Shown: positions 4,167 to 50,650 of the stretch, piece by piece
Layout: every line of letters begins with the position of its first letter
Position numbering within the stretch: the stretch's first letter is position 1
Made by a program: the position numbers and the translations under genes
Notes under the pieces: model-generated
What the model was told of the DNA's origin: nothing
The model's database searches: none
The model's input: only the letters and a program-made list of their open reading frames with translations
Source: Nocardioides mangrovicus
GTDB taxonomy: Bacteria > Actinomycetota > Actinomycetes > Propionibacteriales > Nocardioidaceae
Length of the DNA stretch: 64,000 nt
Direction of reading: 5' to 3'
Assembly: GCF_003674065.1 (NCBI RefSeq)
Contig: NZ_RDBE01000010.1
Span: 856,528-920,527 of the forward strand

Positions 4167-4248
4167 GGCACCATGGTGAACGGACGGTTCCCACGATGTG
4201 CTGACCGTGGGAAGCGACCGTTCACCACGGCACCATGGTGAACGGACG
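4167..4248. repeat. Intergenic hairpin with a duplicated arm
   Basis: A perfect 20-bp direct repeat occurs at 4167-4186 and 4229-4248. Between the copies lies a long hairpin. The outer arms TGGTGAACGG (4174-4183) and CCGTTCACCA (4218-4227) enclose the inner arms TTCCCACG (4188-4195) and CGTGGGAA (4206-4213). The second repeat copy carries another TGGTGAACGG (4236-4245) that can pair with the same 4218-4227 arm, giving two mutually exclusive folds. The element lies between cca (ends 4148) and recQ (starts 4310). It could be a bidirectional terminator, an attenuator or a REP-like element. Confidence 0.75.
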
Positions 4249-34182: not shown

Positions 34183-35333
34183 GCGACGCCGAGCGGCTCG
34201 GTCTCGACGCCGTCGACTGGCTGCTCGTCCACGAGGAGCCCGACGATCCGACGCTCTACAGCGGCACCGCGGGTGTCGTGCTGACGCTGCTCGAGGCGCA
34301 CCACCACACCGGGGAGCAGCGGTACGCCGACGAGGCCGAGCGACGCGTCGACGGACTGTCGGGGCTCGACGGTGGGTCGCTGTACTTCGGACAAGCCGGT
34401 GGGGCGCTGGTCCAGCACGCGGTGCGACGCGACCCCTTAGCCGCACTCGCCGCGGTGCGTGCGGCGTTCGACGGCGAGCGCTTCGAGCACTGGCTGGACC
34501 TCCTGCTCGGCAACGCCGGCGTCGCGCTCACCGCGCTGGCGCTGGGCGATCACCAGCTCGCGATCGACGTGCTGGCGCCGCTGCCGGAGCTGGCCGAGCC
34601 GACGTCGGCCGGCGTCATCTGGCAGACGCGGGCCGGGCGCGAGGCACGGCTGCACCACGTCTCCCACGGCACGCTCGGCGTCGTCATGGCCCTGGTCGCG
34701 GTGGGCGCGGCCTGCGGCCGCGCCGACCTCGTCGAGCTCGGGCTGGCCGGTGCGGCGGACGTCGTGGCCCGCGACGAAGCCGGCCCGACCGGCTTCCTGG
34801 TGCCCCACTCGGACCCGCAGAACCTGCCCGACCGGGTCGAGCGCTACAGCTTCGGGTGGTGCCACGGTCCGGTGGGCGATGCGCAGGCGTTCCGGCTGCT
34901 CGCCGCCGCCACCGGCGACGCCGCATGGAGCACCCTGGCCGAGCGGTGCTGGACGAGCGTGCTCGGATCGGGCCTCCCGCAGCGACTGCGGCCGGGGTTC
35001 TGGGACAACAGCGGCCGCTGCTGCGGCACCGCCGGGGTGCTCGCGCTGGCCTCCGACCGCCGGGCCGAGCTCGACGACGACCCGACCTTCGGCCGGCTCC
35101 TGGTGGCCGACCTCGAGCGGCGCGCCGTCCGGACGTCCGCCGGCGTGTGCTGGCGCAACACCGAGCACACCGCCGCCCAGCCGCTGCTGCCGTCCCGGTC
35201 GGGCTGGGCGATGGGCAACGCCGGGATCGCCCGGGAGCTGCTGCGGTGGACCCGGGTCGAGGCGGGTGGGGACCCGCGGTATGCGGTGGCGCTGCCGGAT
35301 CAGCCGGTGGTCGGGGACGGTTCCCCCGCCTAG
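34179..35333 (+). CDS. Stand-alone LanC-like cyclase family protein (CCG type)
   Basis: A 384-residue alpha/alpha toroid protein of the lanthionine synthetase C-like family. GxxG repeats are visible (YSGTAGVVLTLLEAHHHTG, YFGQAGGALV, GNAGVALTALALG). The LanC active-site motifs are all present: SHG with His163, WCHG with Cys228, and CCG with Cys281-Cys282. LanC enzymes bind Zn through the last two and add Cys thiols to dehydroamino acids. The CCG (rather than CHG) form is known from ProcM-like synthetases. No dehydratase or precursor peptide is nearby, so the substrate is open; glutathione-transfer-like or moonlighting LanCL roles are alternatives. Confidence 0.85.
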   Translation: MSDAERLGLDAVDWLLVHEEPDDPTLYSGTAGVVLTLLEAHHHTGEQRYADEAERRVDGLSGLDGGSLYFGQAGGALVQHAVRRDPLAALAAVRAAFDGERFEHWLDLLLGNAGVALTALALGDHQLAIDVLAPLPELAEPTSAGVIWQTRAGREARLHHVSHGTLGVVMALVAVGAACGRADLVELGLAGAADVVARDEAGPTGFLVPHSDPQNLPDRVERYSFGWCHGPVGDAQAFRLLAAATGDAAWSTLAERCWTSVLGSGLPQRLRPGFWDNSGRCCGTAGVLALASDRRAELDDDPTFGRLLVADLERRAVRTSAGVCWRNTEHTAAQPLLPSRSGWAMGNAGIARELLRWTRVEAGGDPRYAVALPDQPVVGDGSPA

Positions 35334-35348
35334 GCGGGGAAACCGTCC
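35315..35348. repeat. 34-nt palindrome spanning the LanC-like stop codon
   Basis: A 34-nt palindrome with a single mismatched pair, centred on GCCTAGGC. The TAG at 35331-35333 is the stop codon of the LanC-like gene. It could act as a terminator hairpin in which the stop codon lies at the apex of the stem. No T-tract follows. Confidence 0.8.
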
Positions 35349-35442
35349 TCCGGATCGTCACGAATCGGGACACCACAGGGCGGTTTCCTCCACTCGGGTG
35401 ATTGGCTGGTCCGGTTGGTCGGCCGTGGCAGTGGCAGTGGCA

Positions 35443-35529
35443 CCCGGTTTCACCGGCCGGCGGGTGAAACCGGGGGACGAACCCGGAGGAACCACCCCGC
35501 GAACGTCCGGATTCGCGCGCCCGTGGCCC
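35443..35529 (+). repeat. Composite palindromic repeat, copy A
   Basis: A 32-nt palindrome (35443-35474; arms CCCGGTTTCACC/GGTGAAACCGGG) is followed, after 31 nt, by a conserved tail (35506-35529). That tail matches 22 of 24 bases in copy B at 48592-48620. It lies in the gap between the LanC-like gene and tspO. Copies B and C bracket a gene near 49 kb. Confidence 0.85.
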
Positions 35530-46307: not shown

Positions 46308-47750
46308 ATGGCCGCTGTCGACGTCGACGTCCTCGTCGTCGGGGCGGGGCTCTCGGGGATCGGTGCTGGCTGCCACCTAGAGCGCGACCTCCCGGCCACC
46401 ACGTACGCGATCTGGGAGGCGCGCGACGCCAGCGGCGGCACCTGGGACCTGTTCCGCTATCCCGGGGTGCGCTCGGACTCCGACATGTTCACGCTGGGCT
46501 ACCGGTTCCGCCCCTGGCCCGGGGAGCAGGTGCTGGCCGACGGCGCGTCGATCCTGGCCTACGTGCGCGAGACCGCGCAGGAGTACGGCGTCGAGGACAA
46601 GATCGCCTACGACCACCGCGTGACGCGGGCCGAGTGGTCCTCGACCGATCGCTGCTGGACGGTGACCGCGCAGCACGCGGGCCGCTCGACGACGGTGCGG
46701 GCCCGGATGCTGTGGATGTGCAGCGGCTACTACGACTACGAGGCGGGCTATCAGCCCGACTTCGCGGGCCTGGCGAGCTACGAGGGCCGGTTCGTCCATC
46801 CGCAGCTGTGGCCCGAGGACCTCGACGTGACGGGCCGCCGCGTGGTCGTCATCGGCAGCGGCGCCACGGCCGTGACGCTGGTGCCCGCGCTGGCCGAGAC
46901 GGCCGAGCAGGTGACGATGCTGCAGCGCTCGCCGACCTACATCCTGCCGCTGCCCTCGCGCGACTCGGTCTCCGCGGCCCTGCACCGGTGGTTGCCCGGA
47001 CCGGTGGCGGACGCGGTGACCCGCTGGAAGAACGTGCTCACCCAGAACGCGCTCTACCAGCTGGCGCGGCGTCGCCCGGGCTTCGTGCGCGGCCTGGTGC
47101 GCAAGGCCAACGTCGCCCAGCTGCCGCAGGGCTACGACGTCGACACCCACTTCCGGCCGCGTTACGACCCGTGGGACCAGCGGCTGTGCCTGGTGCCCGA
47201 CGGCGATCTGTTCGCGGCGGTGCGCCGCGGTGGCGCGGAGGTGGTCACGGACACGATCGAGACCTTCACCGCCGAGGGCATCCGCCTCGGCTCGGGCCGC
47301 GAGCTCGCCGCGGACGTCGTGGTGAGCGCGACCGGGCTGAACCTGCTCGCGTTCGGCGGCGTCGAGCTGGTCGTCGACGGTGAGCCGCTGCACCTGCCCG
47401 ACACGGTCGCCTATCAGGGGATGATGCTCTCCGGCGTGCCCAACTTCGTCTTCACCATCGGCTACACGAACGCCTCGTGGACGCTGAAGGCCGACCTGGT
47501 GGCCGAGTACGCGGTGCGCGTGCTGCGCGAGCTCGGCCGCACCGGGCGCAGCGTCTTCGAGCCGACGGCGCCGCCGGCGATGAAGACCGCGCCGTTCTTG
47601 GACTTCGCGGCCGGATACGTGCTGCGCAGCGTCGAGCAGCTGCCCCGCCAGGGCTCGTCTGGACGGTGGCGGATGCCGCAGAACTACCTGCGCGACGCCG
47701 TACGGATGCGGCTGGGCCGCGTGCGTGACGACGCCCTGCGACTCTCCTGA
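46308..47750 (+). CDS. ethA: EthA-like flavoprotein Baeyer-Villiger monooxygenase
   Basis: A 480-residue class B FAD/NADPH monooxygenase. The FAD site is VLVVGAGLSGIGAGCHL. GGTWDLFRYPGVRSDSDMF contains the BVMO arginine region, and the NADPH site is VVVIGSGATAVTLVPALAE. RSPTYILP, YDPWDQRLCLVPDGDLF, SATGLNL and the end GRWRMPQNYLRDAVRMRLG follow. It runs collinear with M. tuberculosis EthA (Rv3854c) as I remember it. EthA-type enzymes oxidise ketones and thioamide prodrugs. ATG 46308 was chosen because the fold begins there. No EthR-like gene is adjacent. Confidence 0.9.
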   Translation: MAAVDVDVLVVGAGLSGIGAGCHLERDLPATTYAIWEARDASGGTWDLFRYPGVRSDSDMFTLGYRFRPWPGEQVLADGASILAYVRETAQEYGVEDKIAYDHRVTRAEWSSTDRCWTVTAQHAGRSTTVRARMLWMCSGYYDYEAGYQPDFAGLASYEGRFVHPQLWPEDLDVTGRRVVVIGSGATAVTLVPALAETAEQVTMLQRSPTYILPLPSRDSVSAALHRWLPGPVADAVTRWKNVLTQNALYQLARRRPGFVRGLVRKANVAQLPQGYDVDTHFRPRYDPWDQRLCLVPDGDLFAAVRRGGAEVVTDTIETFTAEGIRLGSGRELAADVVVSATGLNLLAFGGVELVVDGEPLHLPDTVAYQGMMLSGVPNFVFTIGYTNASWTLKADLVAEYAVRVLRELGRTGRSVFEPTAPPAMKTAPFLDFAAGYVLRSVEQLPRQGSSGRWRMPQNYLRDAVRMRLGRVRDDALRLS

Positions 47751-48520
47751 TGCCGGCGCCCTCACTGTGGCAGCGGCTGCTGGGTCCCTCGCTGACCCGG
47801 CAGGTGCCGCGCGACCACCGCCAGAGCAGCGCCGCGTTCCGCCGCCGGCAGCTGGTGACGCTGGGGTTCGTCGTGCTGGGGGCGGGCGTGCTGGCCTGGT
47901 CGCTGCGCATCACGCCGGGCAGCAACACCTTCTACCTGGCCACGATCCTGCTGGCGATGGTGTGGGCGGTGGGCGGCTTCGCCTCCGGCCCGCTGCACCT
48001 GGGCCGCATCGACACCGGGGTGAGCGGCCCGGAGCACGGCACGGCAGCAGGTACCGACGACGGTAGGGACGCCGGCCCGCTGGGACGCCCGGTGGTGCAG
48101 CCGCTGCTGCTGGGCCTGGGCCTGGCCGCGGTGTTCGTCGTCGGTGGCCTGGCGGTGCACGCCCTGCCCTTCCTGGGCTTCCTCGACGACGCCGTCGCGC
48201 GCGTGCTCGCCTACGCCGACCGCGGCTCGACCCCGCTGCTGCTGGCCGTGACCGTGGTGAACGGCGTGGCCGAGGAGATCTTCTTCCGCGGCGCGGTCTA
48301 CGCCGCCATCCCGCGCCGCCCCGTGGTGTGGACGACCCTGGTCTACGTCGTCGCCACCCTGGCCACCGGCAACGTCATGCTCGGCTTCGCCGCCATCGTC
48401 GTCGGCGCCGTCGTCGCCCTCCAACGCCGCGCCTCCGGCGGCGTCCTCGCCCCGATCATCACCCACATCACCTGGTCGGTGGTCATGTTGTACGCGCTGC
48501 CGGCGATCTTCGTGCGGTAG
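47750..48520 (+). CDS. CPBP-family intramembrane metalloprotease
   Basis: A 256-residue membrane protein of the Abi/CAAX-protease (CPBP) family. Six or more helices carry the motif NGVAEEIFFRGAVY (Glu-Glu-x3-Arg), and the last block includes HITWSVVMLYALPAI, with the metal-site His. Its ATG shares one base with the EthA-like stop (TGATG), so the two are co-translated. The substrate is unknown; roles include prenyl-protein processing and bacteriocin self-immunity. Confidence 0.88.
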   Translation: MPAPSLWQRLLGPSLTRQVPRDHRQSSAAFRRRQLVTLGFVVLGAGVLAWSLRITPGSNTFYLATILLAMVWAVGGFASGPLHLGRIDTGVSGPEHGTAAGTDDGRDAGPLGRPVVQPLLLGLGLAAVFVVGGLAVHALPFLGFLDDAVARVLAYADRGSTPLLLAVTVVNGVAEEIFFRGAVYAAIPRRPVVWTTLVYVVATLATGNVMLGFAAIVVGAVVALQRRASGGVLAPIITHITWSVVMLYALPAIFVR

Positions 48521-48533
48521 GGGCGGTGGTGTA

Positions 48534-48620
48534 CCCGGTTTCACCGGCCGGCGGGTGAAACCGGGGGACAAGCGCCGCGAATGGGCACGAGATCTACCGG
48601 ATTCGCGCGCCCGTTGCCCG
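48534..48620 (+). repeat. Composite palindromic repeat, copy B (left boundary of the AbiEi-like gene)
   Basis: A 32-nt palindrome (48534-48565), 26 nt of spacer and a 29-nt tail (48592-48620). The palindrome is the same in sequence as copy A, and the tail is 27/29 identical to the reverse complement of copy C. It lies 13 bp after the CPBP stop and 83 bp before ATG 48704. Confidence 0.9.
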
Positions 48621-48643
48621 AGATGTCGCGGCCTTCCACAGGT

Positions 48644-48652
48644 TTATCCACA
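48644..48652 (+). promoter_or_regulatory. Perfect DnaA-box sequence
   Basis: TTATCCACA, the strongest DnaA-box consensus, stands between repeat B and the AbiEi-like gene, preceded by CTTCCACAG. A single box is not an origin. It may be chance or may tie the element to the replication cycle. Confidence 0.5.
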
Positions 48653-48703
48653 GGTTCGCGGTGTGGCCTGGCGAGAGGGCACGGCACTGCTCAGGCTCGC
48701 GAC

Positions 48704-49654
48704 ATGGCCACAGACCTCTCCGACCTCCTCATCGACGGCGTACTCCTCACGCGCGAAGCCCTGGCGATGGGCGTCGAGGACAAGGAGCTGACGAAGGCGG
48801 TGCGTGCCGGGGTGCTCACTCGTATCCGCCACGGCGGCTATGCCGCGACGGCGGAGTGGAACGCTGCGGGACCGGATCGACGCCACCAGCTCCGCTACAC
48901 CGCCGTCCTCAGGCTCTACGGCAGCCACGTTGCGCTCTCCCACGTCAGTGCCGTCGTCGCCGTCGGGGGTCCGACGTGGGGGATGAGCACCGATCTGGTC
49001 CATCTGACCCACCTCACGACCGGCAGCGCCCGCAAGGTCGCAGGCGTGTGTCACCACCGCGGTCGTTGTGACCGCGACGAGCTGATCTGGAACCGAACGC
49101 ACTGGGTCACCAATGGTGCTCGCACGGTGCTCGACGTGGTGGCGACCGAGTCGTTCGAGGTCGCCTTGGTGGTGGCCTGCTACTTCCTCCACGAGGGCTT
49201 CGCCGACAAGGAGGAGTTGCTCGGCCGCAGCATCTCGCTGCGGCGGGAGTGGCCGAGCACGCTGAGGGCGCCGCTCGTGCTGTCGCTGGCCGACGAGCGC
49301 ATCGAGTCGGTGGGCGAGGCCAGGTGTTGGTACCTGTTCTGGCGCAGCGATTTTTCGATGCCGGTGCCCCAGCACAAGGTCTACGACCATCGCGGCACCT
49401 TCCTGGGTCGCGTCGACTTCGTGTGGCCCGACCTCGGCGTCATCATCGAGTTCGACGGCGCCGAGAAGTATCTGCGCTATCGACGGCCGGGTGAGAGCGT
49501 CGTCGACGCTGTGATTCGCGAGCGCCGACGCGAGAATCGCATCCAGGAGGCGACGGGCTGGGACGTCATCCGGCTGACCTGGGCTGACCTGGCCTACCCC
49601 GACCTGGTTGTCGAGCGCATCGAAGCCGTCATTGCCCGCCGGGCTCGTCGGTGA
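48704..49654 (+). CDS. AbiEi-antitoxin-like N-domain fused to Vsr/DUF559-like nuclease fold
   Basis: A 316-residue protein. The N-terminus (about 5-60) resembles the AbiEi antitoxin winged helix (LLTREALAMGVEDKELTKAVRAGVLTRIRHGGYA). The middle has an AbiEi-like SHVSAVVAVGG / LVHLTH pattern. The C-terminal part (about 225-310) has a PD-(D/E)xK-like layout: GRVDFVWPDLGVIIEFDGAEKY with Asp, Glu and Lys in register, then RERRRENRIQEATGWDVIRLTW as in Vsr/DUF559. No AbiEii toxin gene is adjacent. Base composition is slightly richer in A/T than its neighbours. It is bracketed by inverted repeats B and C. Start ATG 48704. Confidence 0.8.
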   Translation: MATDLSDLLIDGVLLTREALAMGVEDKELTKAVRAGVLTRIRHGGYAATAEWNAAGPDRRHQLRYTAVLRLYGSHVALSHVSAVVAVGGPTWGMSTDLVHLTHLTTGSARKVAGVCHHRGRCDRDELIWNRTHWVTNGARTVLDVVATESFEVALVVACYFLHEGFADKEELLGRSISLRREWPSTLRAPLVLSLADERIESVGEARCWYLFWRSDFSMPVPQHKVYDHRGTFLGRVDFVWPDLGVIIEFDGAEKYLRYRRPGESVVDAVIRERRRENRIQEATGWDVIRLTWADLAYPDLVVERIEAVIARRARR

Positions 49655-49662
49655 CTACAAAT

Positions 49663-49750
49663 CGGACAACGGGCGCGCGAACCCGGTAGATTCGCGACCC
49701 TCTTGCCCGGTTTTGTGACCCGGTTTCACCCGCCGGCCGGTGAAACCGGG
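49663..49750 (-). repeat. Composite palindromic repeat, copy C (right boundary, inverted)
   Basis: The inverted counterpart of copy B: tail at 49663-49691, 27-nt spacer, palindrome at 49719-49750. It begins 9 bp after the stop of the AbiEi-like gene. Copies B and C therefore face each other as roughly 87-bp inverted terminal repeats of a 1217-bp segment. No target-site duplication was visible. Confidence 0.9.
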
Positions 49751-49756
49751 ATCCCC

Positions 49757-50650
49757 TCAGTCCTGACGCTCGTCCTCGACCGCCCGCCGCACGGACTCCT
49801 GGTAGGAGGCGAGGTCGAGCGGGACGACGCGGGTGATGGCGTCGTCCTCGACGACGACCTCGTTGCCCATGGAGTCGATGAGGTTGCGGGCGGTGGTGGT
49901 GTCGACGTCGGTGACCAGTGACATCCAGTGCGAGGACAGGCCGGCGCTGAGGACCGGGACCTGGAGGATGGGGAGGTCGCGGCCGTTCATCACCAGGGCG
50001 GCCTGCTGGAGCATCTCGGCGTAGGTCAAGACGTCGGGGCCGCCGATCTCGAAGACCTGGCCCATCGCGTCCTCGTTCAGCGCGACGCCGACCAGGTAGG
50101 ACACCACGTCGTCGATGCCGATCGGCTGGGTCTTCGTCGCCGCCCACTTCGGCACGACCATCGCCGGCAGGTGCTTGACCAGCTGGCGGGTCATCTCCCA
50201 GGAGATGCCGCCGCGGCCGACGACGATCGCCGCGCGCAGCACGGTGACCGGCACCTCGCCCTTGGCCAGGATCTTCTCGACCTGCCGCCGCGAGCGCAGG
50301 TGCGCGGAGAGGGAGCCCTTCTCCTCGTTGCCCAGGCCGCCCAGGTAGACGATCTGCTGCACGCCGTTGGCCCCGGCCGCCTGGGAGAAGCTGCGGGCGG
50401 CCTCGGCGTCCTTGTCCTCGAAGTCGTCGTCGTCGAGGGAGTGCACGAGGTAGTAGGCGACGTCGACGTCCTCGAGCGGCTCGGTCAACGAGGCCCGGTC
50501 GGCGACGTCGCCGTAGACCGCACGCCCCGCGCCGTCGTAGCTCTCGGGGTGGCGCGTCATCGCCACGACGTCGTGGCCGGCCTCCTCGAGCGCAGGGGCC
50601 AGCCGGGATCCGACGAAGCCGGTTGCCCCGGTCACCAGTACACGCGCCAC
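49757..50650 (-). CDS. NAD(P)-binding atypical SDR (NmrA/SDR_a5-like)
   Basis: A 297-residue Rossmann protein: VLVTGATGFVGSRLAPALEEAGHDV at the N-terminus, DVDVAYYLVHSLDDDDFEDKD, VYLGGLGNEEKGSLSAHLRSRRQVEKIL and the late FEIGGPDVLTYAEMLQ. The pattern is that of UDP-sugar-epimerase-like atypical SDRs without a clear Tyr-x3-Lys pair. Its enzymatic role is unknown; many are redox sensors or quinone reductases. The GTG start is at 50650. It is divergent from the glycan operon. Confidence 0.86.
   Translation of the reverse strand: MARVLVTGATGFVGSRLAPALEEAGHDVVAMTRHPESYDGAGRAVYGDVADRASLTEPLEDVDVAYYLVHSLDDDDFEDKDAEAARSFSQAAGANGVQQIVYLGGLGNEEKGSLSAHLRSRRQVEKILAKGEVPVTVLRAAIVVGRGGISWEMTRQLVKHLPAMVVPKWAATKTQPIGIDDVVSYLVGVALNEDAMGQVFEIGGPDVLTYAEMLQQAALVMNGRDLPILQVPVLSAGLSSHWMSLVTDVDTTTARNLIDSMGNEVVVEDDAITRVVPLDLASYQESVRRAVEDERQD

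Follow-up and report, generated by a model that had tools for sequence, protein, structure and literature searches.

Many bacterial genomes contain short palindromic repeats. In the literature searched, no enzymes other than the RAYT tyrosine transposases are tied to the spread of REPs (Nunvar 2010, PMC2817692; Di Nocera 2013, PMC3733652), and the link between REPs and RAYTs is described as consisting of two inverted repeats flanking the gene, coevolution of both, and a repeat abundance tied to the gene (Nunvar 2010, PMC2817692). The survey of 2013 describes one large class, the CGTC REPs, as apparently having no dedicated transposase (PMC3733652). Here we describe a locus of comparable arrangement whose gene belongs to another protein family. 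In the window, meaning the whole 64,000-nucleotide stretch of Nocardioides mangrovicus DNA that was analysed, the following features are concerned.

35443..35529, + strand: solo copy A of the repeat family to which B and C belong
47750..48520, + strand: left neighbour, an Rce1-like (CAAX/CPBP) membrane protease (Pfam PF02517), outside the element and marking the insertion site
48534..48620, + strand: left composite repeat, copy B, with a 32-nt palindromic head at 48534-48565 followed by a tail
48704..49654, + strand: element gene, encoding a 316-aa protein with an AbiEi_4 winged helix and a predicted Vsr-like C-terminus
49663..49750, - strand: composite repeat on the right, copy C, in the opposite orientation to B
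49757..50650, - strand: right neighbour, an NAD-binding epimerase-type protein (Pfam PF13460/PF01370), outside the element and marking the insertion site

The element and its protein

Alignment bore out the original prediction as far as the repeats are concerned: A, B and C lie at these places, the 32-nt near-palindrome forming the head is identical in all three, B and C are inverted relative to each other, and their last 29 nt agree at 27 positions, as had been claimed. Over the whole unit, B and C agree in 76 of 90 aligned columns. The heads fold stably in RNA folding, and the tail of approximately 55 nt folds in both B and C as a second hairpin under RNA parameters. The head of copy B begins 13 nt past the stop codon of the left neighbour, the head of copy C lies 6 nt away from the stop of the convergent right neighbour, and the stop of the element gene itself (49652-49654) is 8 bp from copy C, so that the element, consisting of the gene and two inverted head-plus-tail repeats, measures approximately 1.2 kb. 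No match to the 32-mer at 3 mismatches was obtained in 100 shuffles of the window (mean 0.00). The half-sites of the head may resemble the chromosomal parS site.

Other repeats also occur in the window. Positions 4179-4244 (- strand) carry a different repeat family, one that brackets the paralogue L021 (G000:C2:681510) of the same genome, and a separate GGTTTCCCCGCCTAGGCGGGGAAACC-type palindrome is found at about 35317-35350, just upstream of copy A. The latter has several copies in the genome, and at loci L004 and L008 it stands 111 bp after a head of the B/C family.

The start codon of the element gene at 48704 is our choice, and the open frame extends back to 48581. Third-position G+C of this frame (48581-49654) is 0.84 compared to 0.95-0.99 in the neighbours, as might be expected of an acquired gene. 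Pfam recognised AbiEi_4 at residues 12-47 (E 9.5e-7), followed by an AbiEi-like middle part, and PADLOC AbiEi models matched the protein with a best E of 3.8e-10. An AlphaFold2 model built with 49 sequences (pLDDT 92.7, pTM 0.89) was matched by Foldseek to the AbiEi antitoxin 6y8q (E 9.8e-6 over approximately 193 columns) and to Rv2827c (1zel, E 3.1e-4). The C-terminal 117 residues were also modelled alone (pLDDT 91.5), and Foldseek aligned this domain (residues ~200-316) with the Vsr endonuclease 1cw0 at a probability of 0.99 and a TM score of 0.63 by query, at an E of 0.058, in a list where three mitoribosomal proteins rank above Vsr and no match reaches E 0.001. D238, E249 and D251 are invariant across the 49 family sequences, of which 38 have the AbiEi_4 domain by Pfam and none a Pfam nuclease domain at E 0.01. 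The C-terminus is thus predicted to adopt a Vsr-like PD-(D/E)xK fold, the nuclease reading resting on the modelled fold together with the three invariant acidic residues. The predicted combination of a winged-helix head with a Vsr-like tail is consequently supported, for the tail by fold similarity. A single-sequence search of the genome contigs with the window protein found no relative. Some family members (L054/L066 in G014, L187, L062) are split or carry in-frame stops, as if family genes were decaying in places.

The similarity to AbiEi could point to a defence or toxin-antitoxin cassette, in which an orphan AbiEi-type antitoxin with a nuclease is mobilised by unspecified means. The PADLOC matches speak for this, but no AbiEii-like partner lies directly beside the element gene, where the locus neighbours are the Rce1-like and epimerase-type genes, and solo repeats that have no gene would be left unexplained; we consider such a cassette very improbable. 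A RAYT was rejected as well, since the Y1 transposase model PF01797 had no match in 11 of 11 genus genomes, including the one carrying the element, while it matched in 5 of 14 in the control set.

Inverted repeats around family genes

The search for the 32-nt palindrome in relatives, which the original prediction had proposed, gave no match at 3 or fewer mismatches in 23 congeners, and it is the arrangement that proved to be conserved. A looser form of the head, GGTTTC-N14-GAAACC, was present in 13 of 24 genomes (the reversed-form control gave one match in G005 and none elsewhere), and some of these matches adjoin homologues of the element gene, for which reason the flanks of the whole family were tested for inverted repeats. 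The threshold for a bracket was set at a score of 45, base shuffles (100 per locus) peaking at 37 or below.

In the genus set, which comprises 46 places found in the genus plus L022, 47 in all, an inverted repeat bracket was present at 38 of 46 testable loci (L065 falling outside the testable count). Records named as Nocardioides or Marmoricola supplied a second set, of 80 loci, which has 7 loci in common with the genus set; here a bracket was present at 73 of 78 testable loci, L131 and L180 falling outside. In other actinobacterial genera the bracket was found at 21 of the 29 best loci, two of them exactly at threshold; 27 of these 29 loci come from beyond Nocardioidaceae, and L273, which belongs to the element's own genome, was left out. 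The reach of the family across the phylum was estimated with the protein model, which at E 1e-15 matched in 140 of 396 drawn genomes and 92 of 246 genera, bracketing at that scale being taken from the 29 best loci.

None of the controls behaved in this way. Outer flanks were bracketed at 0/75 (Nocardioides/Marmoricola set) and 0/29 (phylum set) loci, an unrelated family of epimerase-type genes at 0/25, and mismatched pairs of loci scored as a bracket in 209 of 6006 cases. Within the Nocardioides/Marmoricola set, the own partner flank was the best of all 78 in 61 of 78 loci. A palindrome with an arm score of at least 10 was found within 300 bp upstream on 60 of 80 sides and downstream on 52 of 78, and at distance on 0/79 and 0/74, respectively.

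No bracket at threshold was seen at 8/46, 5/78 and 8/29 loci, among which are some partial matches, pieces of split genes and short flanks. They are L045 (score 38), L051, L054, L055, L066, L112, L119 and L121 in the genus set, L129, L177, L190, L191 (42) and L200 in the Nocardioides/Marmoricola set, and L277 (44), L281, L283, L292, L293, L295, L301 and L302 (39) in the phylum set. For orientation, L049 scored 78 and L281 scored 36 with only 309 bp on one side.

Four further family members are encoded in the element's own genome (L019-L022, one of them a weak match at E 4.3e-5), and each is bracketed by its own, different repeats. Among these paralogues (L018-L022, G000) the repeats differ from gene to gene, yet the two flanks of each gene match. 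No B/C repeat was found around the paralogues because each of them has another repeat. The possibility that B and C are mere 3' ends of the neighbouring genes was rejected, since paralogues and relatives are bracketed by repeats of their own.

Bracketing of the family genes is therefore systematic and not accidental. The original prediction had allowed for accidental bracketing of dispersed repeats and had named, as a finding that would refute it, orthologues that generally lack flanking repeats, and both are contradicted by the proportions of bracketed loci in the three sets, the former also by the controls (0/75, 0/25). Its other refuting condition, that unrelated genes are enclosed equally often, was not borne out by the outer flanks (0/75) and epimerase-type loci (0/25), the comparison being limited to these controls. 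The proposal of a REPtron-like element that has no Y1 transposase gained support both from the bracketing and from the result with PF01797 described above.

Dispersal, genomic position and empty sites

A search with 19 repeat units from seven genomes against nine genomes gave 509 matches, of which 150 were listed, and each of these 150 listed matches falls in a genome with the cognate gene or its orthologue. Units L042 and L109 have their listed matches in the pair G002/G009, which shares the orthologous gene. G003, in which no family gene was found at E 1e-10, had 3 matches (best E 3.6e-4), and G006, with one distant family gene whose unit was absent from the query, had none. Counting both strands of palindromic places, so that the numbers are not copy numbers, 9-72 matches each were obtained in 12 genomes of other genera (11 with a unit in the query and one sister), and none in G046 and G072, which have no match to the gene model, or in G279, which has the gene but whose unit was outside the query. 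In G159, some of the matches belong to the unit of G075, a related genome from the same family, so that the specificity there extends to a group of close relatives. Protein identity and repeat similarity are correlated (Mantel rho 0.35, 0/500 permutations, 69 loci), and repeat similarity climbs steeply above 60% protein identity, although such a correlation is also expected from joint inheritance alone. A hairpin loop motif common to the tails was discarded, as GTTGCAAC occurs in only 14 of 73 units. A distant subfamily (L056, L116, L117, L118, L120 and L122 in G001, G002, G006, G007 and G009) has flanks starting with CATGTAA- or TGTAACGC-type sequences, which by eye differ much less from species to species than the flanks of the main family do.

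Strong hairpins selected behind genes as terminators or insulators, with bracketing either accidental or a protection against read-through, would explain why copies stand directly behind stop codons and why the heads fold stably. They do not predict matching gene-specific pairs (own partner best in 61/78), the near absence of repeats from genomes that have no gene, or the controls at 0/75 and 0/25. This explanation is already contradicted by the gene-specific matching, and we regard it as scarcely credible.

In the element's own genome (G000, 4.1 Mb) the head is present at 17 places with 3 or fewer mismatches, 11 of them exact, and an 18th, more diverged copy was found via the tail at C23:62220, giving at least 18 copies of the B/C family. 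Members of this family occur across the genome singly or as inverted pairs, usually directly downstream of a stop codon, and the repeat families examined have one bracketed gene against several solo copies. By eye, none of 17 copies of the B/C family has a GTAG tetranucleotide beside the head. RNAalifold predicted from 17 copies the hairpin of the head plus a helix of 3 bp, and compensatory changes were absent within the B/C family; a role as RNA was set aside. Among 37 copies of three families of this genome, B and C included, 23 have the head no more than 60 bp from a gene 3' end and 5 no more than 60 bp from a 5' end, with genes called by a codon-position G+C rule, so that single cases may be wrong; the third family by itself has 4/9 at 3' ends and 2/9 at 5' ends.

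These positions bear on the possibility that the protein is an autoregulated AbiEi-like DNA-binding regulator, the flanks being its operators and terminator and the dispersed palindromes a regulon or decoys spread by another enzyme. AbiEi is reported to bind two inverted repeats at its own promoter and to repress it (PMC3985639), the AbiEi_4 domain is present in most members, and 14 of the 37 copies had no 3' end called within 60 bp of the head, while 5 lie close to a 5' end. However, operators do not belong behind genes, where 23 of the copies lie, the repeat on the two flanks differs from one paralogue to the next, and a regulon needs neither long inverted head-tail units nor fixed-spacing dimers nor a conserved nuclease-like domain. 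A regulator thus appears unlikely to us.

The empty-site comparison suggested by the original prediction could be carried out at species distance. For the home locus, the comparison covered 15 relatives of the right neighbour from the genus (L068-L082), with one genome per species, and the element gene was absent from the examined stretch in all 15. The two neighbours converge in 7 of them; the left one has another orientation in 7 and lies outside the stretch in 1. Six of the convergent loci (L069, L070, L071, L072, L074 and L075) have a gap of 11-79 bp between the two protein matches and no element, and empty sites thus exist in relatives at this distance. In the seventh (L073 in G013), the gap measures 122 bp and contains a solo repeat whose head lies a few nt after the stop codon and which aligns with the flank of that genome's own family gene L039 with a score of 82 compared to 20-26 for three others. 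A 400-bp stretch near the epimerase-type gene in G009 (L071, 3096-3495) is missing in G002 (L072).

The pair G009 and G002, 87-96% identical in the compared stretches, allowed a closer comparison. Of 20 solo loci in G009, 7 could be paired with G002 (L234, L238, L240, L243, L244, L248 and L252), L248 by one flank, the 13 others being 11 loci on contigs 3, 4 and 6 together with L246 and L249; from the side of G002, 2 of 5 loci (L268-L272) were paired, L271 being the site of L252 and L272 aligning along its whole length. The pairing gave 8 distinct sites, of which 3 have one and the same repeat in both species (L234, L238 and L272), 1 is empty and 4 are different. At L244 a 300-bp insert of repeats in G009 is absent from G002, at L240 G002 has a remnant, at L243 a full element of 1.3 kb in G002 corresponds to a repeat dimer in G009, at L248 an unrelated palindrome occupies the paired site, and at L252 an L057-type repeat stands in place of the L058-type. 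Since 3 of 8 sites have the same repeat in both species, turnover is not fast. By eye, neither the home locus nor L244 shows a recognisable target duplication, the relatives being too distant for exact element ends. The L109 family in G009 forms inverted dimers at 11 of 12 loci, 8 of them with an identical spacing of 65 nt; the B/C family of the window and the L058 family are mainly singlets.

Vsr-like nucleases include homing enzymes. Because at two gaps the full element of one species corresponds to a solo repeat or a dimer in another, we considered a homing-like gene drive, in which solo repeats would be cut by the nuclease and the break repaired by copying in the gene together with its flanks, the repeats being targets and scars and not cargo. 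In its favour, besides the homing enzymes among Vsr-like nucleases, are the home gap (solo repeat in G013, full element in G000), the second gap (L243), and the fact that the same gaps carry different families in different species. Homing leaves unexplained, however, how solo repeats of new sequence reach 18 sites in one species and why the families have one bracketed gene against several solo copies, and the solo repeat at the common home gap belongs to another repeat family. We therefore regard homing as distinctly improbable.

Proposed mobility and comparison with known systems

The arrangement of gene and repeats and the dispersal of the repeats are well supported. The reading that we prefer, with a probability of about 0.7, is that 48534-49750 constitutes one autonomous unit of a mobile repeat system that resembles REPtrons but does not rely on a Y1 transposase. 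The single repeats and inverted pairs of the B/C family would then be non-autonomous copies of the element. By analogy with AbiEi, which is described as binding inverted repeats (PMC3985639), the AbiEi-like N-terminal part probably binds the palindromic head; the Vsr-like domain may nick or cut the head or the folded tail hairpin, and such a cut could start the copying or insertion of the repeat elsewhere. Copies may survive mainly behind genes, either because they do little harm there or because they are used as terminators. Cutting by the Vsr-like domain appears the most economical assumption, because a binding protein alone needs no conserved nuclease-like domain and would not place sites behind genes. 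We infer that the protein itself moves the repeats; the association and the pattern of presence and absence would also fit a host recombinase or another transposase, the transposase check having covered Y1. On balance, and with more reserve, we favour the wider proposal of a superfamily across Actinomycetota in which an AbiEi-type/Vsr-like fusion would be the sole enzyme that recognises, cuts and spreads a private palindromic repeat, and which would represent a second, convergent REP/RAYT-like invention with a new transposition chemistry.

No description of this association of gene and repeat was found in the titles and abstracts of the best-ranking papers of the literature searched, whose scope excluded ISfinder, bioRxiv and most subscription papers. 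Most hallmarks of REP/RAYT systems are shared by this protein family, which is unrelated to RAYTs, and the system is widespread and, within that literature, undescribed. If the protein mobilises its repeat, a nuclease fold would be added to the transposition enzymes, many ready pairs of protein and site would be available for work on the joint evolution of DNA-binding domains and their targets, and genes whose sole Pfam label is AbiEi antitoxin would gain a meaning.

Among described systems, the AbiE type IV toxin-antitoxin system shares with the element protein a winged-helix antitoxin similarity, as indicated by Pfam, PADLOC and Foldseek (6y8q), but the protein described here has an additional, predicted Vsr-like C-terminus, there is no AbiEii beside the gene, and the gene is bracketed on both sides. 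The likeness to Vsr endonuclease (1cw0) lies in the predicted C-terminal fold and in conserved acidic positions and, at E 0.058, is not accompanied by a significant sequence match. Insertion sequences likewise have terminal inverted repeats around one gene, and their empty sites find a parallel in the relatives at species distance. TIRtrons are described as having long terminal inverted repeats that flank a gene and can form dispersed families, but they carry tyrosine transposases (Di Nocera 2013, PMC3733652). The CGTC-tagged REPs of the same survey are palindromic repeats for which no dedicated transposase was found, and differ in having short stems of other sequence and in occurring mainly in alphaproteobacteria (PMC3733652). 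REPINs (Bertels and Rainey 2011, PMC3116915) resemble the L109 family in G009, which consists of inverted doublets with a fixed spacing at 8 of 12 loci, but the protein family associated with them is another one.

The closest likeness is to the REPtrons of REP/RAYT systems, described as having a single gene between two inverted palindromic repeats, each gene with its own repeat, gene and repeat changing together, and dispersed cognate repeats accompanying the gene (PMC2817692); the repeats also share with REPs a position mostly behind genes (PMC3733652). Unlike REPtrons, the element encodes an AbiEi winged helix with a predicted Vsr-like fold, no Y1/HUH transposase having been found in the 11 genomes searched, and its repeat consists of a palindromic head with a separate tail and no GTAG beside the head in the B/C family, which has at least 18 copies compared to the usual more than 100 REPs per genome (PMC2817692). 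In conclusion, the architecture is that of a REP/RAYT REPtron, built on an unrelated protein family and found across the phylum.
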